NCBI RefSeq assembly: GCF_002270485.1
Contig: NZ_NQOG01000025.1
Span: forward strand, 1 to 34,803
Length of the DNA stretch: 34,803 nucleotides
Origin: Anaerostipes hominis (ex Lee et al. 2021)
Lineage (GTDB): Bacteria; Bacillota; Clostridia; Lachnospirales; Lachnospiraceae
Direction: 5' to 3'
Positions within the stretch are counted from its first letter, which is position 1. Every line of letters starts with the position of its first letter. The position numbers were made by a program, and so were the translations under genes. Positions 10,465 through 22,377 of this stretch are shown here, in pieces. Under the pieces are notes generated by a model. That model was not told the DNA's origin and did not search any database. It saw only the letters and a list, made by a program, of their open reading frames with translations.

Positions 10465-11868
10465 TTAAAGCTGGCATACTTTGTGAGGGTTCAGGATATT
10501 TTTCGGGTCAAAGGCTGCTTTGATTCCCCTCATGATATTCATGGTTTCTTCTTCTAAAGACTCATTAAGATATGGCTTCTTGGCATATCCTATGCCGTGT
10601 TCCCCGGACACCTGACCGTTTAGTTCATTCGCTTTCCGGTATATTTTTTCCATTGCCAGCGTCATCCGCTCCTGCCATTGTTCCTCTGTCAGATCGTCCT
10701 TCAAAATATAAGCATGGAGATTTCCGTCCCCCGCGTGGCCAAAGCTCTTGATCCTGATGTCCACTTCGCTGTGAAGATTGTGCATATACTCAACCATCTC
10801 ACTGATCTTATTTCTTGGAACGACCACATCCACCTCGTCCATATAGGTGGTAGATCCTTTGATCGCTTCCAGAAATGCACCTCTGGCTTTCCAGATGGAT
10901 TCGTCCCGCTCTTCTGTATCGGAGATCAGCACATCCAGTGCGCCCTGACTTAAACAGAGTTTTGCGACCTTATCGTAGTCCGCTTCGATCTCCTCGGCCG
11001 AATTTCCATCGAATTTCAGAAGAAGGTATGCGTCTGCCTGATGGTCCGGGAACTTTTTGCCCAAATATTCTTCGGCATCCTCAATAACCTCTCTCTGCAT
11101 GAATTCGATTGCCGTAGGAATCGCTTTGGACTTGATGATCTCCGGCACCGTCTGTATCGCCGAGTTAAGATTTTCAAACGGTATCAGAAGACTGATCGCT
11201 TTTTTCGGAAGCGGAAGCAGTTTAAGAACCGCCTTCGTAATAATTCCCAGTGTTCCCTCGGACCCTACCATCAGATCCTTCATCGCATAACCGGAACTGT
11301 TCTTCACGATTTTCCCTCCGAACTCTACAATCTTTCCGTTGGGCAGAACCACTTCCAGTCCACGGACATAATCTCTTGTAACCCCATATTTTACTGCCCG
11401 CATGCCTCCGGCATTTGTACTGATATTTCCTCCGATAGTTGCAGATTTCTCCCCCGGGTCCGGCGGGTAGAAAAAGTCATGATCCTCTACAAATGCTGAC
11501 AGCTCCATCAGGAGCACTCCAGGCTCCACGGTTACCGTCAGATTTTCTTCGTCCAGTTCAAGGATCTGATTCATCAGACTGGTATCCATCATAATCCCGT
11601 GTTCCATTGCCACAGAAGATCCCACAAGCCCTGTGCCCGCTCCCCTTGGAGTGACCGGAATCGTGTGTTCATATGCGTAGGACATGATCTTTGAAATCTC
11701 TTCTGCATTTGCTGCCTTTACTACAACGTCAGGATAACTCTGGGTACCGCTCAGCTCGTCATGGCTGTATTCCTCATTTATATTTTCTCCGTATAAAATA
11801 CGTTCGTCATCACCGATTACCTGCTTTATGTACATAAGATCTTTTTCATCTAATCTTTTATATCCCAT
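10465..11868 (-). CDS. lctD: FAD-linked lactate dehydrogenase (LctD/GlcD type), copy 2
   Basis: This FAD enzyme of the vanillyl-alcohol-oxidase fold oxidises a 2-hydroxy acid, by context D-lactate, to pyruvate and passes electrons to the Etf pair encoded just upstream. FAD-binding motifs are [10 protein letters not shown] (near residue 76), [21 protein letters not shown] and [10 protein letters not shown]; the C-terminal [10 protein letters not shown] and SGEHGIG motifs are family hallmarks. The start is only 2 bases past the etfA2 stop, with AGGGGG as ribosome site inside that gene. EtfB-EtfA(4Fe-4S)-dehydrogenase is the gene order and domain make-up of Acetobacterium woodii LctBCD, which couples lactate oxidation to NAD reduction at the expense of reduced ferredoxin. 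Exact substrate and stereochemistry are inferred. Confidence 0.9.
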
Positions 11869-11870
11869 AG

Positions 11871-13064
11871 CTATGCCCCCTGACTCTCTTTGATTTTTTC
11901 AATGAACTGAGGAATGACCTCATATAAATCCCCCACCAGACCGTAATGGGCTACCTTGAAGATAGAAGCTTTCTCATCCTTATTGATGGCAATGATCTGG
12001 TCTGAATGATCCATGCCGGCAACAAACTGAATGGCACCGGACACCCCGCAGGTGATGATCAGTTTCGGGCGGACAGTACGGCCGCTTAAGCCCACCTGCC
12101 GTTTTGCATCCAGCCAGCCGTTCTCTGCCACTGGCCTTGTACATGCCAACTGCCCGCCTAGAAGGTCTGCCAATTCTTCCAGCATCAGGAGATCCTCTTC
12201 TTTTTTGACACCGCGTCCCGCCACTACGAGGACATCGGCAGATTCAATGAACTTTTCCTTCTCTTTCAGAACAATATCAAGAACTTCAACATTTGTCTTA
12301 AGTTTATCCTTTTCAATCGAACATTCTACAATTTCACCCTGTTCTTCCTCCATCCGTTCCGGAGCATTCATCACTTTATAGCGGACGGTTGCCATCTGCG
12401 GACGGTGATTGGGTGTTGTGATATGTGCCATAATATTTCCGCCGAAGGCAGGCCGTATCTGGGACAGATCTGTGTTTTCATTCATCTCAAGGATCGTACA
12501 GTCCGCCGTAAGCCCTGTCTTCATTCTGGCTGCTACTCTTGGGGCCAGCTGTCTTCCGACAGTTGTTGCACCTACTAAGATAGCGGATGGATGCTGTTTT
12601 TGTATAAAGTCTTCAAAGACTGCCGTATACGGTTCTATTTTAAAACGGCTCAGTTCCGGGTCGTCATATAAAAATACCTGATCAACTCCATAATGCAGCA
12701 GTTCCCTGCTCTTTTCTTTAATATCGCTTCCGATGAACAGGGCATACACAGGATGAGAAATCTTTTTGGCCAGTTCTTTTGCCTTTCCGATCAGTTCATA
12801 AGTCACCGGGTGTATCTTGCCGTCCACATGGTCAACATACACTACGATTCCGTTCCATAAGGATTTATCAATCTCTTCTGCCTTCTGGTCCTCCACATAA
12901 GTGACGGCTCCTTCCGGTCCTTTCTTCACACACAGTCTGCACATCTTACAGGCCGAATTGATCTCCAGTTTTCCGTCTTTTTCTTCCATCGCCCCAAACG
13001 GACAAATTTTAATCAGTTCACTGAGATCCGTTATTTTTTCCTGATTAATTTCTAACTTTGCCAT
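11871..13064 (-). CDS. lctC: Electron-transfer flavoprotein alpha subunit with N-terminal 4Fe-4S domain
   Basis: The 397-residue protein has a ferredoxin-like N-terminus (residues 1-65) before the usual EtfA body. Cys21 (ICPFGAM) together with Cys39, Cys42 and Cys45 (CKMCRLC) can hold one 4Fe-4S cluster. The C-terminal FAD domain shows [22 protein letters not shown], then [23 protein letters not shown] and [13 protein letters not shown]. The extra cluster domain is what distinguishes confurcating LctC from ordinary EtfA, and it is the likely entry for ferredoxin electrons. It starts 12 bases after etfB2 behind TAGGAGG. Confidence 0.93.
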
Positions 13065-13076
13065 ATGTAATTCCTC

Positions 13077-13865
13077 CTATACAAATTTCAGTTCTTTCAC
13101 TTTTTGAAAGAGTTTTTCTGAAAGGATACTGCTCTCCTCGTTCCAGAGTTCCCTGTGGTGGTTAGTTTCCGGAGGGAAAATCTTCTGAACCTGTGTGGGT
13201 GAACCGTTCAGTCCGTAATGGGTCTCATCTCTGTCATCCATGTCATCCAGACTGAGCATAGTGATTTCCGTATCTGCTTTCTCGGTTTTTCTCACGTAAG
13301 AAGGAAGTCTCGGCTGGAAAATGTCTTTATCCACTGCCAGAAGACAAGGATAGGCAATCCTTGTGATCTCAATGTCGTCCGGCATATCCATCTCAACTGT
13401 AATATTCTGTCCGTCTGCCTCGGTGATTTTTCTTACATTTGATACACTCGGGATACCAAGCCATTCCGAGATCTCCGGTCCAACCTGGGCTGTATCCCCG
13501 TCTGTGGTCTGTTTCCCGCACAGAATCAGGTCAAAGTCTCCCATCTTTTTGATCCCCTGGGCCAGGGTATAGCTTGTGGCCAGCACATCGGCTCCCCCGA
13601 ATCTCCGGTCGGAAATCAAAGTTCCGTGATCTGCTCCCATCGCATAGGCTTCCCTTATCACCTGGGCCGCCTGAGGAGGCCCCATGGTGATCACACTGAC
13701 CTCCCCTCCCAGTTCTTCCTTTAATCTCATGGCTGTCTCCAATGCGTAGAGATCATAGGGATTCATCTTGGACGCTGCCCCGTTTCTTTTCAGGACTCCC
13801 GTTTTTGGATCAACCTCTACCTTATTGGACTCCGGCACCTGTTTGATACAAACTAAAATATTCAT
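13077..13865 (-). CDS. lctB: Electron-transfer flavoprotein beta subunit, copy 2
   Basis: EtfB partners EtfA to bind the FAD that handles NAD(H) in confurcating complexes. The 262-residue protein opens with NILVCIKQVPESNKVEVDP and carries MNPYDLYALETAMRLKE, VITMGPPQAAQVIREAYAMGAD and LILCGKQTTDGDTAQVGPEISEWLG, all EtfB hallmarks. It is the first gene of operon 2, with GGAGG 9 bases before ATG. The leader between the promoter at 13982-14010 and this start holds two GntR-type operators and a hairpin. The paralogue at 15952 is clearly related but differs along its whole length. Confidence 0.93.
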   Translation of the reverse strand: MNILVCIKQVPESNKVEVDPKTGVLKRNGAASKMNPYDLYALETAMRLKEELGGEVSVITMGPPQAAQVIREAYAMGADHGTLISDRRFGGADVLATSYTLAQGIKKMGDFDLILCGKQTTDGDTAQVGPEISEWLGIPSVSNVRKITEADGQNITVEMDMPDDIEITRIAYPCLLAVDKDIFQPRLPSYVRKTEKADTEITMLSLDDMDDRDETHYGLNGSPTQVQKIFPPETNHHRELWNEESSILSEKLFQKVKELKFV

Positions 13866-13887: not shown

Positions 13888-13906
13888 CGATTGGTCCTAC
13901 CAATCG
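13888..13906. promoter_or_regulatory. GntR/FadR-type operator, leader of operon 2 (perfect)
   Basis: CGATTGGTCCTACCAATCG is a perfect palindrome with 8-bp arms and a 3-base centre. Its core TTGGT-N3-ACCAA matches the operator form known for FadR-subfamily lactate regulators (LldR, LutR). It lies about 23 bp before the etfB2 start. Confidence 0.85.
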
Positions 13907-13941: not shown

Positions 13942-13959
13942 GGTTCTCTGTTCTCTATA

Positions 13960-13972
13960 TTGGCCCTACCAA
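13960..13972. promoter_or_regulatory. GntR/FadR-type operator at the operon 2 transcription start
   Basis: TTGGC-CCT-ACCAA has one mismatch from the perfect site at 13888-13906. It lies directly after the predicted transcription start (about 13975), so bound protein would block initiation. Confidence 0.8.
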
Positions 13973-13981
13973 TTTATCTTT

Positions 13982-14054: not shown

Positions 14055-14744
14055 TTATCTCGTTTTCATGCGCTCCAGCGTGCTGTTGATAATATCAAAG
14101 TGATCCTCAATCGCCTTTCTTCCGCCTTCCAGGTCTTTTTCAATCATGCATTTTGCAATTTCTTTATGTGCCTGCTGCAGCTTTTCTTTGTTGTCATCCT
14201 TAAATATCTCTCTCCGCATGTCTGTGATATAAGTATCCAGCACATCGGATAATGCCTGTAAAATATCTATAATCAGAACATTGTGGGAAGCCTTTGCTAT
14301 CGCATAATGAATCTTTTTATCCCAGATCACGCATTCTTCCTCAGTTTTGCCCCGGTCCAGATTCAGTATATACTCGCCAATCTTCTGGATCTCCTCTTTG
14401 CTGATGTTGTCCACTGCCAGCACAAAGGCCTGCATTTCCAGCGCAAAGCGGAGCTGTGTGATGGAACCATAGTCAAGTTTATGCAGAATAAACATCATGG
14501 ACATTGATTCTACAAGGTTTTTTTCAAAATTACAGGAAACATAATTTCCCGCTCCCTGCTGACTTGAGATAAACCCCATCATCTCCAGCATATGGATCGC
14601 CTCACGCACAGAATTTCTGCTGACGCCCAGCTGCTCTGATATTTCTCTCTCAGGAGGTAATTTTTCACCGATCGTCAGATCATGGTTGATGATCTGTTTC
14701 TTAATATGTTCAATCACTTTTTCGTAAGCTTTTGTCTGCTGCAT
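14055..14744 (-). CDS. GntR-family regulator, FadR subfamily, of the lactate genes
   Basis: The 229-residue protein has a winged helix-turn-helix at residues 5-70 (LPPEREISEQLGVSRNSVREAI, GFISSQQGAGNYV) and a helical FCD ligand domain at 75-225. Asp and His residues typical of the FCD metal site appear in DKKIHYAIA, AHKEIA and DHFDI. FadR-type FCD regulators of lactate genes (LldR, LutR) bind TTGGT-N3-ACCAA-like sites and release them with lactate. Four such sites lie in front of the two flanking lactate operons, the best evidence for its role. It has its own promoter and an AGAGGG ribosome site; no operator was seen at its own promoter. Confidence 0.88.
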   Translation of the reverse strand: MQQTKAYEKVIEHIKKQIINHDLTIGEKLPPEREISEQLGVSRNSVREAIHMLEMMGFISSQQGAGNYVSCNFEKNLVESMSMMFILHKLDYGSITQLRFALEMQAFVLAVDNISKEEIQKIGEYILNLDRGKTEEECVIWDKKIHYAIAKASHNVLIIDILQALSDVLDTYITDMRREIFKDDNKEKLQQAHKEIAKCMIEKDLEGGRKAIEDHFDIINSTLERMKTR

Positions 14745-14939: not shown

Positions 14940-15938
14940 TTATTCTGCTTCCTTTTTCTTTTTGATCTCTTCGATCATAACCGGAAGCACGTTTATTGCA
15001 TTTCCTACGATGCCGATGTTGGCTACTTCAAAAATAGGCGCATCTTCATCTTTGTTGATCGCTACTATATAATCGGAATTCATGATTCCGGAAACATGCT
15101 GTGTCGCACCGGAAATACCGCAGGCAATATAAAGCTTCGGCGCTACGATTTTTCCTGACTGCCCTACCTGGTGGACCCTGGAGATCCATCCGTCTTCGAT
15201 AGCGGGCCTTGTGGCTCCAACCACTCCGCCCAGAAGATCTGCCAGTTGTTTTACAAGTTCAAAGTTTTCCCTGCTGCCCATTCCCCTTCCGCCTGAGACG
15301 ATGACTTGGGCATCTTCGAGATTGACTGTCTCGGAAATTTCTTTGACCACATCCTTTATCTTCAGCCGGATATTTTCATCTGCGGCCGGAATATTTTTCT
15401 CTGTGATCGTACCTTTTACAGTTTCCTCTGACTTTTTAAAAGCTCCGGAACGCAGCACTGCAATCTGGGGCACAGATGTTTCCATAACCACGTCCTGAAG
15501 TACGGTTCCTCCATAAAGAGGGCAGGTATAGACTGTCTTTCCATCCTCCGTCTTTACATCCATGACATCAGAGGCACAACCGGTCTTTAATCTGGCGGCA
15601 AGCTTCGGGGCAAGGTCTTTGCCGTCCTGAGTTCCTCCCACGAAAACCGCATAGGGTTTCACCTCTTTTATCACTGATTCCATCACATTGGCAAAGCGGT
15701 CCAGATGAAATATTTCATACTCAGGACTTTCGATCAAGATCACTTCGTCGGCGCCGGATTCGGCAGCTTTTTGGGCGGCTGTTCGAATCCCGTCTCCGAT
15801 CAGGACTGCTCTGACCTTCCCGCCCTTTTTTTCAGCGATTTTTCTGGCAGGAGAGAGCATTTCCAATCCGACCTTGACCGGACTTTTGTCCGCAGTCTCA
15901 ATATAAACCACGATATCCTTATATTCTGTCATATCCAT
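14940..15938 (-). CDS. etfA: Electron-transfer flavoprotein alpha subunit, copy 1 (no 4Fe-4S domain)
   Basis: ATG 15938 is preferred because AAGGAGG stands 8 bases before it; the longer frame from 15968 begins inside etfB. The 332-residue protein has the usual EtfA layout: an N-terminal Rossmann-like domain and a C-terminal FAD domain with GGRGMGSRENFELVKQLADLL, QVGQSGKIVAPKLYIACGISG and IVAINKDEDAPIFEVA. It lacks the cysteine-rich N-terminal domain of copy 2, so it is not expected to take ferredoxin electrons directly. It is the last gene of operon 1 and partners the etfB 13 bases upstream. Confidence 0.94.
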   Translation of the reverse strand: MDMTEYKDIVVYIETADKSPVKVGLEMLSPARKIAEKKGGKVRAVLIGDGIRTAAQKAAESGADEVILIESPEYEIFHLDRFANVMESVIKEVKPYAVFVGGTQDGKDLAPKLAARLKTGCASDVMDVKTEDGKTVYTCPLYGGTVLQDVVMETSVPQIAVLRSGAFKKSEETVKGTITEKNIPAADENIRLKIKDVVKEISETVNLEDAQVIVSGGRGMGSRENFELVKQLADLLGGVVGATRPAIEDGWISRVHQVGQSGKIVAPKLYIACGISGATQHVSGIMNSDYIVAINKDEDAPIFEVANIGIVGNAINVLPVMIEEIKKKKEAE

Positions 15939-15951
15939 TGCAAACTCCTCC

Positions 15952-16755
15952 TTAGAATACTTTCGCATCCGCCATCATGGCAACTGCTTTTAATGCTGAA
16001 TCTTGCGCTGTCTCTTCCTGAATCTTGATCCCAGCCTCTTTTTTCGGCGGTTCATACAGCTTAAGAGTTTTTACAAAGGCACCGCCCTCTCCTGTTTTTT
16101 CAGGTTCCAGCACTGACAGGTCTTGTGCCTTGATCGTACCAATCGGCTTTTTCCGGGCTGCCATCTTATTTTTAATCGTCGGATATCTCGGATCATAATC
16201 CGGCTTTGTGACAGTCAGAACACACGGAGAGGCCGTCTCGATGAGGCGGTATCCTTCTTCCGTCTCCTGTTTGGCGCACACCTGTCCTTCGGCAAATTCG
16301 ACCTCGATCACGTTGGTGATGACTCCGGTACCCAGCATTTCGGAGAGTTCTGCTCCCACCTGTCCAAGGGCAGCGTCGGTAGCCTCTTTCCCACAGAAGA
16401 TCAGATCAAACTTCTTTCCGGTGTCTTCCTCGATCTTTTTGGCGGCACACATCAGTATATGGCTGATCCCCCTGGAATCCGAACCGTCAAACCGGTCTTC
16501 CTGGACCAGATATGCATGGTCTGCTCCCACTGCGAGACAGTTTTTTAATGAATTCCTGGCTTCCTCACCGCCGATGCAAAGGGCAGTGATCTCCCCTTCC
16601 CCGGCTTCTTTCAGGCGGGCAGCCATCTCCAGCGCATAGGTATCAAACGCATTGACGACAGGCGTGATGTTTGCAAGATCCGGCTTCCCTTCTTCTGTCA
16701 AATGTACTTCCACGGAATCATCCGGCACCTGTTTAATGCACACTAAAATTTCCAT
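15952..16755 (-). CDS. etfB: Electron-transfer flavoprotein beta subunit, copy 1
   Basis: ATG 16755 follows AAAGGAG by 8 bases and gives the standard start MEILVCIKQVPDDS; GTG 16764 lies too close to that site. NAFDTYALEMAARLKE, ICIGGEEARNSLKNCLAVGADHAYLV-type and LIFCGKEATDAALGQVGAELSEMLG segments are family hallmarks. It forms the Etf dimer with the downstream etfA and follows the acyl-CoA dehydrogenase gene by 29 bases, the usual pairing for Etf that serves an acyl-CoA dehydrogenase. In this operon it could equally accept electrons from the lactate dehydrogenase two genes upstream. Confidence 0.94.
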   Translation of the reverse strand: MEILVCIKQVPDDSVEVHLTEEGKPDLANITPVVNAFDTYALEMAARLKEAGEGEITALCIGGEEARNSLKNCLAVGADHAYLVQEDRFDGSDSRGISHILMCAAKKIEEDTGKKFDLIFCGKEATDAALGQVGAELSEMLGTGVITNVIEVEFAEGQVCAKQETEEGYRLIETASPCVLTVTKPDYDPRYPTIKNKMAARKKPIGTIKAQDLSVLEPEKTGEGGAFVKTLKLYEPPKKEAGIKIQEETAQDSALKAVAMMADAKVF

Positions 16756-16784
16756 AATCTTCACTCCTTTGTCCAGTCAATTTC

Positions 16785-17921
16785 TTATCTGCCAATGGTA
16801 TTGTTCGCGATGACAATTCTCTGGATTTCGTTGCTTCCCTCAAAAATCTGGAAGATCTTCGCGTCACGGAGAAGTTTTTCTACCGGATATTCTCTGCTGT
16901 ATCCGTATCCGCCGAACATCTGGATGGCTTCTGATGCCACCTCCATGGCAATATCGCTGGCGTAGCATTTTGCAATAGCCGCTTCCTTAGAATGAGGAAG
17001 TCCAAGATCCATCTTTGTCAGTGCATGGGCAACCATCTGGCGGGCTGTCTCTGTCTTGATCGCCATATCTGCGATCTTAAACTGCAGCGCCTGATTTCTG
17101 ATGATCGGTTTTCCAAACTGGATTCTTTCTTTTCCGTAGGCAATTGCCTCATTGATGCCTCTCTGTGCAATTCCGGCTGCTACACAGCCCATCCATGCCC
17201 TGGCCTGGTCAAGGGTCTTCATGGCGATTCCAAATCCTTTTCCTTCCTGCCCGATCAGGTTCGCTGCCGGAATTCTGCAGTCTTCCAGGACAACGTCACA
17301 TGTGTTGGATGTACGAATTCCCATCTTATCTTCTTCATTTCCGGTGCTCAGTCCAGGTGTTCCTGCATCCACAAGGAACATGGAGATACCTTTTACACCC
17401 TTGCTTTTATCGGTCATAGCCGTAATGCAGTAGAAGGAAGCGATCCCGCCGTTTGTGATAAAGCATTTTCTTCCGTTCAGTATGTATTCGTCTCCGTCTT
17501 TCACTGCAGTTGTTGTACCTGCTCCTGCATCTGAACCTGCTCCCGGCTCTGTGAGGCAGAATGCTCCGAATCCGCCCTCGATGATCTGATCACAGACATG
17601 CTTCTTTTGTTCTTCGTTTCCTGCAATGAGAACCGGCTTTGTTCCCAGTCCGCTGGCAGAAATCGTGGTGGCAAATCCTGCATCCGCGATTGCCATCTCC
17701 TCGATCAGCGCCGCAACATCTACTCTGGAAAGACCCGGTCCGCCGTATTCCTCAGGGACTTCGAGGGAGTGCAGCTGCATCTCGATCGCTTTATCATAAA
17801 TCTCTTTCGGCCATTCTCCTGAACGGTCAAATTCTTTACACTGTTCTTTGACTTCATTCTCGCAAAACTCTCTCACATCCTGCAGTAAATCGTTTGCCTC
17901 TTCTGAAATTAAATATGCCAT
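16785..17921 (-). CDS. Acyl-CoA dehydrogenase, short-chain (butyryl-CoA dehydrogenase-like)
   Basis: The 378-residue flavoenzyme interconverts an acyl-CoA and its 2-enoyl-CoA using Etf as electron partner. Visible marks are FCLTEPGAGSDAG and FITNGG around the flavin, QALQFKIADMA, MFGGYGYSREYPVEKLLRDAK, and IFEGSNEIQRIVIANN, whose Glu is the expected catalytic base. It resembles the crotonyl-CoA/butyryl-CoA enzymes of butyrate producers, but the true chain length cannot be read from sequence. It lacks the usual butyrate neighbours (crt, hbd, thl) and sits between lactate dehydrogenase and etfB. Related lactate clusters of Anaerobutyricum and Anaerostipes are recalled to carry such a gene. Its role there is unsettled. 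Confidence 0.9.
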   Translation of the reverse strand: MAYLISEEANDLLQDVREFCENEVKEQCKEFDRSGEWPKEIYDKAIEMQLHSLEVPEEYGGPGLSRVDVAALIEEMAIADAGFATTISASGLGTKPVLIAGNEEQKKHVCDQIIEGGFGAFCLTEPGAGSDAGAGTTTAVKDGDEYILNGRKCFITNGGIASFYCITAMTDKSKGVKGISMFLVDAGTPGLSTGNEEDKMGIRTSNTCDVVLEDCRIPAANLIGQEGKGFGIAMKTLDQARAWMGCVAAGIAQRGINEAIAYGKERIQFGKPIIRNQALQFKIADMAIKTETARQMVAHALTKMDLGLPHSKEAAIAKCYASDIAMEVASEAIQMFGGYGYSREYPVEKLLRDAKIFQIFEGSNEIQRIVIANNTIGR

Positions 17922-17960
17922 AATTGATTTCTCCTTTATAGATAAATAGTTGGTTTTACA

Positions 17961-19388
17961 TTATAACTTGTAGCAGACTTTGCCCGGATTCAGAATCATA
18001 TTCGGATCAAAGACAGTTTTTACGCCTTCCATGATACGCATGCTGACCGGTCCCACAGATTCTGCCAGGTAGTCAAGCTTTCCGTGTCCAATGCCGTGTT
18101 CTCCGGAGATCAGCCCTCCGAATTCCGTGGCTTTTTCGTACACTTTTTTCATAAACACTGATACTTGCTTTCTGAATTCCTCCTCCTGCATATCATTGCT
18201 GCAAGTATAAATATGCAGATTTCCGTCTCCCGCATGGCCGAAACTTTTTACCCTGAAATCAGCTTCTGCTTCCAGAGACTTGGTATAGGTTAAAAACTCG
18301 GCAATCTTATTCGTAGGTACGACCACATCACATTCATCCAAAAGCACAGTATCCGCCTCAATGGCCTCTAAAAGAGCACTTCTCACAGCCCACGCGTCAC
18401 GTTTCAGTGCCGGTGTATCAGCTACCAGAACATCGATGGCTCCCGCCTCCAAGACAACCTCAGAGGCTGCCTCTATGATATCTTCCAGCTGTTCTTCTGA
18501 GTCCCCGTCAAAGGTGGCCAGCAGATAAGCACCGACCTCCACGCCTTCCATTTCTTTTGGATAAACCTTCTTTCCCAGGAACTTCTCCGTATCCATGACG
18601 ACATCCTTTTCCATAAACTCCAAGGCCTGAGGATGCAGATGATTCATGAAAAACCGGGGCACTGTGGCAATACAGTCTTCCAAAGTTTCATAGGGAATGA
18701 TCAGGCTGATAACCGCTTTCGGCTGAGGGATCAATTTAAGAGTCAGCTCTGTTATGACTCCCAATGTCCCTTCCGATCCGATCATCAGATTCAGCAGGCT
18801 GTATCCGGAACTGGTTTTGGAAACTGTCGCCCCCAATTTGACAATCTCGCCGGTGGGAAGAACGACCGTCATCGCCCTGACATAATCTCTCGTAGTCCCG
18901 TATTTTACAGCCCTCATACCGCCGGCATTGGTTGCCACATTCCCGCCTACTGTTGCAAATTTTTCTCCCGGGTCCGGCGGATACAAAAGCCCCTGCTTTT
19001 GTGCATCTTCCGCCAGATCGTTTAGAAGAACTCCGGGCTGTATCGTCACCACAAAGTTTTCTTTGTCATAGCCCAGGATTTTATTCATTTTCGTTATAGA
19101 CAGCATGACTCCGCCGTGTATGCTGACGGCTCCTCCTACCAGCCCGGTTCTGGCTCCGCTTGGCGTCACTGGAATCTTTTGCTCATTACAAAGCTTCATC
19201 ACCGCTGCAACTTCTTCTGTAGTCAATGGTTCTACTACCGCTTCGGGTTTTGCCTTTCCGTAGATCGACATCTCATCGTGGGTAAAATCATCATTGATCT
19301 CATCTCCCGTATAGACACGCTTGGGTGCAATCTCATTCAGACGGTCAATGATTTCCTGTGTCACTTTGCCGTATTCATATTCGCTCAT
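17961..19388 (-). CDS. FAD-linked lactate dehydrogenase (GlcD/LctD type), copy 1
   Basis: ATG 19388 follows AAGGAGG by 5 bases; the upstream TTG 19403 is inside that ribosome site. The 475-residue protein shares all motifs with the copy at 10465: [53 protein letters not shown] and SGEHGIGHGK. By context it oxidises D-lactate (L-lactate after racemisation by LarA) to pyruvate, with EtfAB of the same operon as acceptor. It follows larA by 20 bases. It is clearly a paralogue of copy 2 but diverged enough to argue for a distinct partner, not a recent duplication. Confidence 0.9.
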   Translation of the reverse strand: MSEYEYGKVTQEIIDRLNEIAPKRVYTGDEINDDFTHDEMSIYGKAKPEAVVEPLTTEEVAAVMKLCNEQKIPVTPSGARTGLVGGAVSIHGGVMLSITKMNKILGYDKENFVVTIQPGVLLNDLAEDAQKQGLLYPPDPGEKFATVGGNVATNAGGMRAVKYGTTRDYVRAMTVVLPTGEIVKLGATVSKTSSGYSLLNLMIGSEGTLGVITELTLKLIPQPKAVISLIIPYETLEDCIATVPRFFMNHLHPQALEFMEKDVVMDTEKFLGKKVYPKEMEGVEVGAYLLATFDGDSEEQLEDIIEAASEVVLEAGAIDVLVADTPALKRDAWAVRSALLEAIEADTVLLDECDVVVPTNKIAEFLTYTKSLEAEADFRVKSFGHAGDGNLHIYTCSNDMQEEEFRKQVSVFMKKVYEKATEFGGLISGEHGIGHGKLDYLAESVGPVSMRIMEGVKTVFDPNMILNPGKVCYKL

Positions 19389-19408
19389 CTTCTCCTCCTT
19401 CAAAAATC

Positions 19409-20698
19409 TCAGTTTCTGTTTCTTACAATAACTGCAACACCGTCCGGTATCACAGTGATCTTACTGTTTTCTTTGCCCAGATACTCATCGGCCAAGCGGA
19501 TCGCATCTTCCACGCTGTCCGCATAGTCCATCTGCATCTCCTCCACCATGTCCTTCGGAGCCTGCGTCACCAGGATGACTTTATACTTTAATAGGATACG
19601 GCATAAGATCTGGGACTCCCATTGGTCAGGCACTGTGGAGTTCCGGTCTGTAGCGAGAAATCTCTGCATGATCTTTTCCTTATCCTTCTCCTTTGCAAAA
19701 GTGTCATACAGCTCCTTGCCGCCGTGTCCGTCAATGCAGCTTGCAGCCATAATAATGACTCCGCCCGGCCGGCAGGTGGCTTCCGCCGCAGTCATGCCTT
19801 TGACTGACTGGTAAATATTCTGATCCAGAGGGTAACCCCCGTTGGTGGATATGACGATGTCGGAAGGTACTGCGTCCACTCCTGAAAGCTGATCCACGAA
19901 CCGGCAGCCCTTTTCATGAGCTTTTTCATAGTGCCCCGCGAATGCCTCGATCACCTTTTTATCTTCATCCAGCACAACGTTTATGATAAAAGCCAGTTTT
20001 GCCTTTCCAGCCGCATAGATCATATCTCTGTGAATAGGGTTTCCTTCAAGAATTCCTGTTCTGGCATGGGAATCATCAATAAACTCTGAGCAGTGGTTGG
20101 CCAGTACCGTTGTTCTGCTGGAGACTCCCGGAAGCACGCTCTTTCTTCCTCCGGAAAAACCTGCAAAAAAGTGGGGTTCAATGAATCCTTCCGAGATTAG
20201 AAGATCGGCCTCCCAGGCAATTTTGTTGATTAAAAGCTCTCCTCCGGATGGAAGCTTTCCAAGGCTTACCATATCCTCCGGCTTCCCGCTTTCGTGCACT
20301 ACAAACCTGATATCCGGATGATCCACCATATCTTCCCCAAACTTTGAGATCAGTTCTTCTCTTGTGGTAGGACGGTGAAATCCCGTGGCGATTAAAACTG
20401 TAATCTCTGCATCAGGATTTCCCTGCTTGATCTCCTCCAAAACAGCCGGCATGATAACCTTGCTTGGAACCGGACGAGTATGGTCGCTGGCGATCATCAC
20501 AATATTGTCTTTTCCCCTGGCCAGTTCTTTTAGCCTCGGTGTTCCCACCGGATGCATCAGGGCATCCCTGACCAGATCTTCCTCTCCCATCTTTGCCTGA
20601 TAATCATGGGCTTTTGATAAGAGGATTCCTGCTAGCCGCTCCTCCGGGATCTCAATCGCTAATTTCCCTTTTCCGTAGGGAAGGTTTATCATTTTCAT
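19409..20698 (-). CDS. larA: Lactate racemase, nickel-pincer (LarA)
   Basis: LarA interconverts D- and L-lactate with a nickel-pincer nucleotide bound to a lysine. Residues known from the Lactobacillus enzyme are all present with a small offset: His108 (GFHRP), His176 (EPHFFAG), Lys186 (SGGRKS, the cofactor lysine) and His202 (ANHCSEF); SDHTRP at 71-76 is also typical. At 429 residues it is full length. GGAGG precedes ATG 20698 and the gene starts 21 bases after lctP. The cofactor-making genes larB, larC and larE are not in this window. With one racemase, the D-type dehydrogenases can serve both lactate isomers. LarA homologues with other 2-hydroxy-acid substrates exist, but the neighbours favour lactate. 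Confidence 0.92.
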   Translation of the reverse strand: MKMINLPYGKGKLAIEIPEERLAGILLSKAHDYQAKMGEEDLVRDALMHPVGTPRLKELARGKDNIVMIASDHTRPVPSKVIMPAVLEEIKQGNPDAEITVLIATGFHRPTTREELISKFGEDMVDHPDIRFVVHESGKPEDMVSLGKLPSGGELLINKIAWEADLLISEGFIEPHFFAGFSGGRKSVLPGVSSRTTVLANHCSEFIDDSHARTGILEGNPIHRDMIYAAGKAKLAFIINVVLDEDKKVIEAFAGHYEKAHEKGCRFVDQLSGVDAVPSDIVISTNGGYPLDQNIYQSVKGMTAAEATCRPGGVIIMAASCIDGHGGKELYDTFAKEKDKEKIMQRFLATDRNSTVPDQWESQILCRILLKYKVILVTQAPKDMVEEMQMDYADSVEDAIRLADEYLGKENSKITVIPDGVAVIVRNRN

Positions 20699-20719: not shown

Positions 20720-22270
20720 TTAAATAAATCTAAGTCCCAAAAATGCGATCACTCCGTAAAGTACGATAAACAGAATGAAGTATTTCATGGACCCGTTCAG
20801 TATCCTGCTCTCTTTTCCCACTGTTCCCGTAGCTGCCACAGCAATGGCAATGCTCTGGGGTGAGATGATCTTTCCCGCCGTGGACCCTACTGTATTGGCC
20901 GCCGCCAGCCAGACATCGTTCATACCGAGTGTATGGGCTGTCTGGACCTGAAGACCGGTAAAGAGGACACTCGAAGATGTGGCGCTTCCCGTCACGAAGG
21001 TTCCGATCGAACCGATGAGCGGTGCCACCAGAGGATAAAAAGAACCGGTGACTGCCACAATCAAAGCCGCAATATCGCTGATCATTCCGCTGTATCCCAT
21101 GACTTTTGCTGTTGCCAGAACGGATACGATGGTAAGGACCGTCTTTGACATCTGTATCAAAGTGTCTCTCAATACCATTCCGATCTCTCTTAATGAGGCT
21201 CCCTGTGCTTTTCCTCCGATCAGAGCCGCTAAAAAAATCAGAACACCCGGTGTCGCCAGCCAAGTGAAAGTATACGGGGCTGCATCCGCACCTGTATAAA
21301 TTTGAACAGAACTCTTTACGCTCGCCAGCGGATCGTGAATGGCCGGGACAAGACTGGAAGTCAGCAGAAGAAATACCAGGATCAGCAGAAACGGAAGCCA
21401 TGCGATAACTGCCCTTTTTAATCCAAGAGGTTCCCTTCCGGATTGTTCCGAATTTTCAAGCCCGTGAAGAATGTATTCCGGGTCCTCTTTTTTCTTCAAA
21501 AGTTTTGCCGCCAGGATCGTGACAGCCATGCTGCATACAGAGCCGATTACAGCCGGAAGTTCAGCCCCCACAAACTTTGCCGTAAGGTATTCCGGAATAA
21601 TAAATCCTAATCCGGATAGCAGCGTGATCATGCCGATTCCCTTCAGTCCTTTGACAGAACCCCCTGTCATGATCATCATTAAAAACGGTGTCAGGACTAC
21701 CAGGACTGCAAGCTGTATTACAACGGCTACTGCTACGCCTTTGGAATCCAGGCCGCTCACAGAGGCAGCCGTGATGGTTGGAATGCCGATCGATCCGAAT
21801 GCAGTGGGCGTTGCATTGGCAACCAGACATACCGTTGCCGCAAAGATCGGGCTGATGCCAAGCCCGCATAAGATACTGGCCGGAATCGCAACTGCCGTTC
21901 CAAAGCCGGCCATCCCTTCCATGAATCCTCCAAATCCCCATGCAATGATGAGGATCAGAATCCGTTTGTCTCTGGATACACTGGTCAGCATCCGTTTAAT
22001 TAAATCCATATTTTTTGTATGTACCGTCAGGTTGTAAGTGAAAATGGCCGCGATAATGACGAGACAGATCGGCCAGATCCCCATAGCCGCTCCCTCCAGT
22101 GTTCCGGTAAGAGCATCAATGAGCGGCATTTTCCAGAGAAACAGTGCAAGAACTAGTGTGATCGCAAGTGAAATAGGACAGGCTTTGTATCCTGGCATTT
22201 TAAGACCGCTCAAGGCAGCCATCAGCCAAAGAATAGGGAGCAAAGCCAAAATAAATTTGATGAACATCAC
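20720..22270 (-). CDS. lctP: Lactate permease (LctP/LldP family)
   Basis: This is an integral membrane carrier that imports lactate with protons. The 516 residues hold a dozen or more hydrophobic segments, and the family signature regions FGGFMEGMAGFGTAVAIPA (near 115), ANATPTAFGSIGIPT and GSIGTFVTGSATSSSVLF are intact. AAAGGAG precedes GTG 22270 by 9 bases and ATG 22267 by 12; either could be the start. It is the first gene of operon 1, behind a promoter overlapped by two GntR-type operators. Its leading place fits uptake as the first step of the pathway. Confidence 0.94.
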   Translation of the reverse strand: MMFIKFILALLPILWLMAALSGLKMPGYKACPISLAITLVLALFLWKMPLIDALTGTLEGAAMGIWPICLVIIAAIFTYNLTVHTKNMDLIKRMLTSVSRDKRILILIIAWGFGGFMEGMAGFGTAVAIPASILCGLGISPIFAATVCLVANATPTAFGSIGIPTITAASVSGLDSKGVAVAVVIQLAVLVVLTPFLMMIMTGGSVKGLKGIGMITLLSGLGFIIPEYLTAKFVGAELPAVIGSVCSMAVTILAAKLLKKKEDPEYILHGLENSEQSGREPLGLKRAVIAWLPFLLILVFLLLTSSLVPAIHDPLASVKSSVQIYTGADAAPYTFTWLATPGVLIFLAALIGGKAQGASLREIGMVLRDTLIQMSKTVLTIVSVLATAKVMGYSGMISDIAALIVAVTGSFYPLVAPLIGSIGTFVTGSATSSSVLFTGLQVQTAHTLGMNDVWLAAANTVGSTAGKIISPQSIAIAVAATGTVGKESRILNGSMKYFILFIVLYGVIAFLGLRFI

Positions 22271-22319
22271 AAGCAGAAACTCCTTTCGGTTTAAGACGAC
22301 GAGTTACAATCCAAATAAA

Positions 22320-22332
22320 TTGGTTCTACCAA
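22320..22332. promoter_or_regulatory. GntR/FadR-type operator in the lctP leader
   Basis: TTGGT-TCT-ACCAA is a perfect palindrome, extended to 15 bp as ATTGGTTCTACCAAT. It lies about 10-22 bases after the predicted transcription start and 50 bases before lctP. Confidence 0.85.
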
Positions 22333-22348
22333 TCCCCTGTTGTCCCTT

Positions 22349-22361
22349 ATGGTAGGACCAA
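22349..22361. promoter_or_regulatory. GntR/FadR-type operator over the lctP -10 region
   Basis: ATGGT-AGG-ACCAA has one mismatch from the TTGGT-N3-ACCAA core. Its centre is 29 bp from that of the neighbouring site. It covers the -10 and part of the spacer of the predicted promoter, so binding should block RNA polymerase. Confidence 0.82.
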
Positions 22362-22377
22362 TTTCTTCATTTGTCAA
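22349..22377 (-). promoter_or_regulatory. Promoter of operon 1 (lctP-larA-ldh-acd-etfBA)
   Basis: On the minus strand TTGACA (22377-22372), a 17-bp spacer, and TACCAT (22354-22349). The -35 is perfect and the -10 is 4/6, partly dictated by the overlapping operator. Transcription would start near 22342. Confidence 0.65.

Follow-up and report, generated by a model that had tools for sequence, protein, structure and literature searches.

Operon 1 and its neighborhood

The window analyzed here is a whole 34,803-base contig (NZ_NQOG01000025.1) of the 3.33 Mb Anaerostipes hominis genome, and the system in question is its operon 1, for which a direct electron route from lactate to an enoyl-CoA has been proposed. 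This compact minus-strand cluster comprises, in order, LctP, LarA, the lactate dehydrogenase (LDH) LDH1, the acyl-CoA dehydrogenase (ACAD) ACAD1, and EtfB1 and EtfA1, the two subunits of an electron-transferring flavoprotein (Etf) (Table 1). Its open reading frames (ORFs) are separated by 5-39 bases or overlap; 20 bases separate ACAD1 from EtfB1, and the EtfA1 ORF overlaps EtfB1. The order LDH1-ACAD1-EtfB1-EtfA1 was found again in Lachnospiraceae, Eubacteriaceae, Oscillospiraceae and Fusobacteriota, and this recurrence indicates that the arrangement is not due to chance. The first-pass annotation described an LDH, an ACAD and an EtfAB pair lacking the 4Fe-4S domain. This gene content is borne out by the ORFs, by their Pfam domains and by motif inspection, which found no CxxCxxC in the N-terminal part of EtfA1 and one in EtfA2 of operon 2. 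The span that it assigned to the system, 16785..19388, holds LDH1 and ACAD1; the EtfAB1 genes lie outside it. Among the named relatives of EtfB1, that of Anaerostipes sp. MSJ-23 is the closest (74% identity).

Table 1. Coordinates of the lactate genes, their regulator and the operator-like sites in the window
Feature	Coordinates	Strand	Basis or remark
LctP, lactate permease (516 aa)	20720..22270	-	TIGR00795 lctP over cut-off; PF02652
LarA, nickel-dependent lactate racemase (429 aa)	19409..20698	-	NF033504 over cut-off, 640 bits
LDH1, FAD-dependent lactate dehydrogenase	17961..19403, likely ATG 19388	-	PF01565 (FAD_binding_4) and PF02913 (FAD-oxidase_C)
ACAD1, butyryl-CoA-dehydrogenase-like acyl-CoA dehydrogenase, class X (378 aa)	16785..17921	-	Pfam acyl-CoA dehydrogenase domains
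EtfB1, Etf beta subunit	15952..16764, likely ATG 16755	-	without Gly123, NAD-site Arg and SPT anchor
EtfA1, Etf alpha subunit, FAD-binding domain kept, without ferredoxin domain	14940..15968	-	PF01012 and PF00766
GntR/FCD (LldR-like) regulator	14055..14744	-	PF00392 and PF07729; best NCBIfam match LldR, below cut-off
EtfB2, bifurcating type	13077..13865	-	Gly123, R-x-F-x-G, SPT
EtfA2	11871..13064	-	N-terminal CxxCxxC (4Fe-4S) domain
LDH2, confurcating type	10465..11868	-	A. woodii LctD-like
Operator-like palindrome ATTGGTAGAACCAAT	22319..22333	.	upstream of LctP
Operator-like palindrome copy, 2 mismatches	22348..22362	.	overlaps promoter-like -10
Operator-like palindrome	13959..13973	.	upstream of operon 2
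Operator-like palindrome	13890..13904	.	upstream of operon 2

EtfB1 lacks the bifurcation motifs

The missing 4Fe-4S domain does not suffice to show that EtfAB1 is non-bifurcating, since bifurcating Etfs of the butyryl-CoA dehydrogenase (Bcd) type also lack one (PMC9232219); the features that tell bifurcation status sit in EtfB. As the criterion we used Gly123 (Acidaminococcus fermentans numbering), which serves as the bifurcation test in PMC12630350, and compared motifs in motif-anchored alignment columns. In Acetobacterium woodii EtfB, the NAD-site residues are R87, F89 and G91, and the anchor is S223-P224-T225 (PMC9232219). The bifurcation stretch of EtfB1 reads DAALGQVG, as against DGDTAQVG, with Ala at position 123; its NAD motif is D-R-F-D-G instead of R-K-F-G-G, with Asp for the Arg but the Phe and final Gly intact; and AFV replaces the SPT anchor. 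When ACAD1-EtfAB1 was tested as a bifurcating Bcd-EtfAB, the beta-FAD/NADH site was not found in EtfB1. These residues point to EtfAB1 belonging with the canonical (non-bifurcating) Etfs of the Fusobacterium nucleatum lct type.

LDH1 and ACAD1 retain the residues of Etf partners

By sequence, the solved structure nearest to LDH1 is chain C of 7QH2 (E 7e-145), the LctD of the A. woodii lactate dehydrogenase-Etf complex, with which LDH1 agrees at each of the 13 checked active-site and flavin-contact positions. E37, E139, R328, H377, H384, E422 and H423 are all present, E37 and E139 being conserved in bifurcating but not membrane-spanning Ldh (PMC9232219), and LDH1 is by analogy likely to be D-specific. 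The LDH contacts 226 and 277 named in PMC9232219 do not match the chain letters in the numbering used, and we draw nothing from them.

ACAD1 is closest by sequence to 5OL2 chain C (E 2e-105), the Bcd of the Clostridium difficile complex, in which F155, E198, E210, Y340, T343, D345 and Y346 are placed at the contact with alpha-FAD and domain II (PMC5691135). ACAD1 keeps F155, E198, Y340 and Y346, and replaces T343 by Ser, D345 by Glu and E210 by Asp. It is not a recent copy of the central Bcd, given that the genome's five other ACADs share only 39-45% identity with it. These retain Tyr361 and Gln248; ACAD1 has F361 and V248. The same division runs through the 35 ACADs of the LDH-anchored set described below: class X (24/35) has F361 with Val or Ile (one Ala, one Thr) at 248, its changes falling at positions 240-248 and 361, and class Y (11/35) has Y361 and Q248. 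Class X accompanies a non-Gly EtfB (one without Gly123) in 22 cases, an unreadable EtfB in two and a Gly-bearing EtfB in none; for class Y the counts are nine non-Gly and two Gly-bearing. PMC12630350 puts positions 248 and 361 at the substrate cleft, and suggests that the same kind of pair in the F. nucleatum enzyme BcdFN (Phe, Ile) is linked to the failure of butyryl-CoA to reduce it; by analogy, ACAD1 may be one-way as well.

Loss of the EtfB glycine is linked to a neighboring ACAD

To avoid choosing loci by their Etf, we anchored a comparative survey on LDH, querying with LDH1 (E 1e-60) and then reading the neighborhoods. The search covered 391 Clostridia genomes (65 matched), 397 genomes of the family (60) and 98 Fusobacteriota (28), the first two sets overlapping. 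The resulting table holds 179 LDH rows, with EtfB readable in 155; one match (L028, genome G776) was left out, L146 was excluded as a miscalled 201-aa ORF, leaving 33 of 34 non-Gly rows, and the EtfB of L228 was set by hand to the neighbor of its ACAD1 and LDH1 counterparts. Among the 24 rows where EtfB was not found or readable, L080 and L157 have an ACAD.

An ACAD lies within 6.5 kb of the LDH in 31/33 non-Gly loci, compared with 2/122 Gly-bearing loci (L087 and L162; Fisher p = 7e-28, counting kin as independent). CxxCxxC was found in none of the 32 readable non-Gly EtfAs and in 103 of the 122 Gly rows; among the 19 Gly rows without it, some EtfAs are fragments (e.g. L104, L115). Position 123 in the 33 non-Gly EtfBs is occupied by Ala (8), Glu (7), Tyr (6), Phe (4), Val (2), Thr (2), Ser (2), Asn (1) or Cys (1), and also by Arg in EtfB-anchored loci, a variability as expected if the site had been freed from constraint. 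These relatives mostly carry Asp, Glu, Ala or Pro in place of the NAD-site Arg, and none of their six most frequent anchors is SPT; the equivalent of EtfA Arg243 is kept in 55/55 non-Gly EtfAs, EtfB-anchored loci included. Fusobacteriota contribute nine of the 33 non-Gly genomes, and 11 of the 33 also carry a Gly/4Fe-4S LDH locus, as the window does. On the EtfAB tree (parsimony, quick tree) the ACAD class changed at least three times, the ACAD staying in the cluster throughout.

Gene order among the 31 ACAD-bearing non-Gly loci is LDH-ACAD-EtfB-EtfA in 24, and the same with EtfA unseen in the stretch in one (L075). The other six have EtfB-EtfA-LDH-ACAD, and are Clostridium tyrobutyricum-type clusters with Glu123; these qualify the claim of PMC12630350 that canonical clusters always have Bcd ahead of EtfAB. 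The Etf adjoining LDH and ACAD in L039 (C. tyrobutyricum) and L078 has Glu at the bifurcation position; genome G314 (locus L105) has a second, confurcating-type locus with Gly and a 4Fe-4S EtfA; and directly upstream of an lct cluster in Fusobacteriota genome G794 stands another, divergent EtfA/EtfB/ACAD set (L228 8455-11371), 26-29% (Etf) and 45% (ACAD) identical to that of the window. An apparent 1,974-aa LDH fusion in L134 was rejected, its reading frame containing a run of Ns, and open frames of ~875-890 aa with one stop from the family search were read as adjacent in-frame genes rather than fusions.

The EtfB docking loop follows the LDH clade

The fixed contact with the dehydrogenase is made by the recognition loop of EtfB, which is RLPSY in A. 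woodii (PMC9232219). This loop is PRYPT in 33/33 LDH-anchored non-Gly EtfBs and RLPS in 104/104 Gly/4Fe-4S EtfBs (103 LDH-anchored, one EtfB-anchored). EtfB-anchored loci are biased for the loop, one search pattern having been YPTIKNKM, and were kept out of the 33. Among 28 EtfBs whose mostly short stretch shows an ACAD and lacks an LDH (one gene is present twice, as L250 and L254), Tyr occurs in 23 and a Met after it in 19. The LDH side differs as well: R320, a salt-bridge partner in A. woodii LDH, is present in 0/32 non-Gly versus 103/103 Gly/4Fe-4S rows; position 324 is Ala in 30/32 versus Val or Ile in 103/103; and position 315 is Ala in 32/32 readable non-Gly rows, and also in 31/103 Gly/4Fe-4S rows. 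We considered PRYPT as a code for dual docking and rejected it: PR[YF]P[TK] occurs in five Gly-bearing LDH1-clade loci, three of them without a linked ACAD, and two of the 28 ACAD-only loops (L266, L267) read PRYP followed by S, which also speaks against a special code. By these alignments the PRYPT loop tracks the LDH1 clade, and LDH1-type Etfs have a docking-loop signature of their own.

A proposed lactate:enoyl-CoA relay and its alternatives

We propose that operon 1 encodes a lactate:enoyl-CoA electron relay via a shared, non-bifurcating Etf, a reading to which we give a probability of about 0.85. Lactate would be imported by LctP and its enantiomers interconverted by LarA, so that the racemase would supply both to a D-specific LDH1, on whose FAD D-lactate would be oxidized to pyruvate. 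EtfAB1, predicted to carry one redox flavin (alpha-FAD), would dock through the EtfB recognition loop, accept two electrons from LDH1 in two one-electron steps and leave. It would then dock on ACAD1 and reduce its FAD, crotonyl-CoA being converted to butyryl-CoA with neither NAD nor ferredoxin involved. Because the alpha-FAD face meets either LDH or Bcd in the respective solved complexes, docking should alternate (ping-pong) without a single ternary complex. No energy would be lost relative to LDH2-type confurcation plus Bcd-type bifurcation, since the net reaction is their sum. Residues, operon structure and comparative table all support the direct route suggested in the first-pass annotation, which has an in vitro precedent in F. 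nucleatum (PMC12630350). For operon 1 itself, we infer activity, docking, crotonyl-CoA as substrate and regulation.

Several observations weigh against this proposal. The Fisher test ignores kinship, and the non-Gly Etfs are one clade. Two of the 33 non-Gly loci have no ACAD near the LDH, namely L160 and L134 (a run of Ns follows the LDH), and the EtfB-anchored L036 shows none; L036 and L160 (G754) have a non-Gly EtfAB beside LDH1, and either an unlinked ACAD serves there or another acceptor is used. Conversely, the Gly-bearing Etfs of L087 and L162 stand with both an ACAD and an LDH of the LDH1 clade, and ACAD linkage therefore does not require loss of bifurcation. In EtfB1 itself, the residue at 123 is Ala, a small one, and two NAD-motif residues, the Phe and the final Gly, remain. 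The EtfB of Latilactobacillus sakei plasmid pL13-1 likewise has Ala at 123 (DADTGQVG), with the NAD motif and SPT kept, so Ala at this position alone proves nothing; the ACAD-EtfB-EtfA set of this plasmid (L289 2501-3277) is a possible test of whether Ala alone abolishes bifurcation. Finally, the NCBIfam model scoring highest for ACAD1 is that of acryloyl-CoA reductase, at 424 bits well short of the 640-bit cut-off.

The small Ala123, the L. sakei case and the Gly-bearing Etfs of L087 and L162 would suit a two-faced EtfAB1 that keeps beta-FAD, confurcating with LDH1 and bifurcating with ACAD1 as in the Anaerobutyricum hallii scheme of PMC12630350. We consider this very unlikely: the DGDT stretch, the NAD-motif Arg and the SPT anchor are also gone from EtfB1, and its relatives have Glu, Arg, Tyr, Phe or Val at 123. 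There is likewise little chance that LDH1-EtfAB1 and ACAD1 are co-expressed without direct coupling, with EtfAB1 donating to another acceptor, such as the central Bcd, and ACAD1 served by the Etf of another cluster. The genome does hold five other Etf pairs and five other ACADs, and L160 and L036 lack a linked ACAD; but the ACAD stays near the LDH in nearly all non-Gly loci, even after replacement of its class, and direct coupling has been demonstrated for F. nucleatum (PMC12630350). As to the acceptor, the first-pass annotation named crotonyl-CoA or acryloyl-CoA. Crotonyl-CoA is the likely one, the genome having a thl-crt-hbd-bcd-etf butyrate cluster. That ACAD1 instead reduces acryloyl-CoA or another enoyl-CoA, as its below-cut-off NCBIfam match and the class X changes around the substrate cleft might suggest, seems extremely improbable: PF06050 (2-hydroxyacyl-CoA dehydratase) has no match in the genome at E 0.001, and crotonyl-CoA is reduced by the F. 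nucleatum Bcd, which shares the Phe/aliphatic pair of ACAD1 (PMC12630350).

Origin of the non-Gly Etf clade

Quick EtfAB trees with motif columns masked recover the non-Gly EtfABs as one clade, with Shimodaira-Hasegawa-like approximate likelihood ratio test (SH-aLRT) support of 100 for both 43 rows and 33 rows. In the tree without an outgroup this clade adjoins the Gly-bearing Etfs of LDH1-clade loci, which suggested a loss of bifurcation. A single such loss was weakened as an explanation once an outgroup of three proteobacterial G1 Etfs was added, to a tree that also held haloarchaeal, L. sakei and Rhizobium Fix pairs: the Gly rows then cluster apart from the non-Gly clade (support 96-97), and the non-Gly EtfABs fall not inside G1 but nearest the G1 root, with long branches in play. 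Constraining the non-Gly rows to form a clade with the LDH1-type Gly rows gives a tree that is not rejected (p-AU 0.373). The Q-V-G of most non-Gly P-loops is closer to bifurcating Etfs than to G1 with its NQTG/NATG, a point in favor of loss; non-bifurcating EtfBs are considered the source of bifurcating ones (PMC6085437). These trees fit either a loss of bifurcation in the non-Gly clade or its primary absence. In the LDH tree the non-Gly rows are not one clade, and LDHs of Gly loci are nested at two places inside the LDH1 clade, with one more (L169) at its base, a placement compatible with the 'co-opted twice' of PMC12630350; Etf modules have thus probably been exchanged between LDH1 clusters.

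A bolder idea, which we regard as doubtful, is that the lct EtfABs form their own class of dedicated two-partner Etfs. Their loop PRYPTIKxKM would merge the ACAD-type Tyr with the LDH-type Pro, the class X ACAD with which they are often paired could be a one-way valve, and, from their branch beside all bifurcating Etfs, they might be extant non-bifurcating kin of the lineage that gave rise to bifurcation, rather than a late loss.

Operon 2, shared operators and genome context

Operon 2 has the features of the A. woodii confurcating Ldh-EtfAB: EtfB2 keeps all three bifurcation motifs, EtfA2 has the 4Fe-4S domain, and LDH2 matches A. woodii LctD at 12/13 checked positions, with Glu at D32. The distinction between the two operons drawn in the first-pass annotation holds, EtfAB1 being without these motifs and this domain. 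The GntR/FCD regulator gene stands between operon 1 and operon 2, and its product is probably lactate-responsive. Within the window, exact copies of ATTGGTNNNRCCAAT occur only at 13890, 13959 and 22319, and five both-strand matches were found versus 0.01 expected. These palindromes are probable operators bound by the GntR/FCD protein, through which both lactate operons would be induced together. The two lactates used per butyrate could then be split, one passing through operon 1 to crotonyl-CoA and one through operon 2 to NADH for Hbd.

Elsewhere in the genome, contig C9 (L250) carries a thiolase, crotonase, Hbd, Bcd, EtfB and EtfA cluster with a Gly-bearing EtfB, the thiolase, crotonase and Hbd being named from sequence by eye. 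RnfC_N has one genome match over cut-off. An EtfB-EtfA pair on contig C7 (L251) has an ACAD on either side, and an ACAD on contig C12 (178566) has no adjoining Etf.

Comparison with known systems

How gut Lachnospiraceae turn lactate into butyrate is of wide interest, and the window holds a confurcating LDH and a putative direct relay behind seemingly the same operators, such that their division of labor is testable in one organism. The direct-relay hypothesis is not new; operon 1 is ordinary in kind, and its proposed mechanism is well supported. A link between lactate oxidation and crotonyl-CoA reduction was suggested for gut bacteria in 2022, when the electron path was being described as unknown, with a call for tests of ACAD/Etf specificity (PMC8914356), and the lct cluster and its lactate-induced proteome were described in A. 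soehngenii (PMC7702098). The Etfs of Anaerostipes and Coprococcus have been called canonical by alignment, and the direct route was extended to Anaerostipes on that basis (PMC12630350). Those of the lactate clusters of C. tyrobutyricum and C. butyricum were treated as group G2, lactate subgroup (PMC10397141, PMC6373154), a view that may need revision for one C. tyrobutyricum cluster given the Glu123 at L039. In the literature searched, several papers of it as excerpts, we did not see the near-complete link of glycine loss with a neighboring ACAD, the docking-loop signature, the question of whether bifurcation was lost or never present, or the C. tyrobutyricum-type Glu123 clusters in EtfB-EtfA-LDH-ACAD order; these comparative points sharpen published claims.

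The closest known system is the lct cluster of F. nucleatum (FN1531-1536), whose purified Ldh, ETF and Bcd (LdhFN/ETFFN/BcdFN) transfer electrons directly from lactate to crotonyl-CoA in vitro (PMC12630350, 2025). Like operon 1, it has Ldh, Bcd, EtfB and EtfA in one cluster, an EtfB without the bifurcation glycine, and a Bcd with Tyr361 changed to Phe and Gln248 to an aliphatic residue. It has LrgAB where the operon 1 cluster has a permease, racemase and GntR regulator, and, by the residues named in PMC12630350, Phe at the position 123 that is Ala in EtfB1. The F. nucleatum reaction has been measured; for operon 1 it is predicted. The lct clusters of Anaerostipes caccae, A. hadrus, Coprococcus catus and Anaerobutyricum are similar in gene content (PMC7702098, PMC8914356, PMC12630350), but in the Anaerobutyricum type the glycine is present and the genes run LDH-EtfB-EtfA-ACAD, an order also seen in L162. 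The A. woodii confurcating Ldh-EtfAB (7QH2; PMC9232219) is matched by operon 2, and shares its LDH family and active-site residues with LDH1. EtfAB1 differs from it in lacking the 4Fe-4S domain on EtfA and, on EtfB, the glycine, NAD-site Arg and SPT anchor; in LDH1, R320 is replaced by Leu, and positions 315 and 324 are Ala. ACAD1 belongs to the same family as the Bcd of the C. difficile and A. fermentans Bcd-EtfAB (5OL2, 4KPU; PMC5691135), with most Etf-facing residues shared, but EtfAB1 differs from their bifurcating type; the central Bcd-EtfAB of the genome has a bifurcating-type EtfB. In Megasphaera elsdenii, work of 1964 and 1975 on D-lactate dehydrogenase, ETF and Bcd (cited in PMC12630350) had electrons pass from lactate to crotonyl-CoA through Etf, as proposed here for operon 1, although the M. 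elsdenii Etf is, unlike EtfAB1, bifurcating and not encoded in an lct cluster (PMC12630350).

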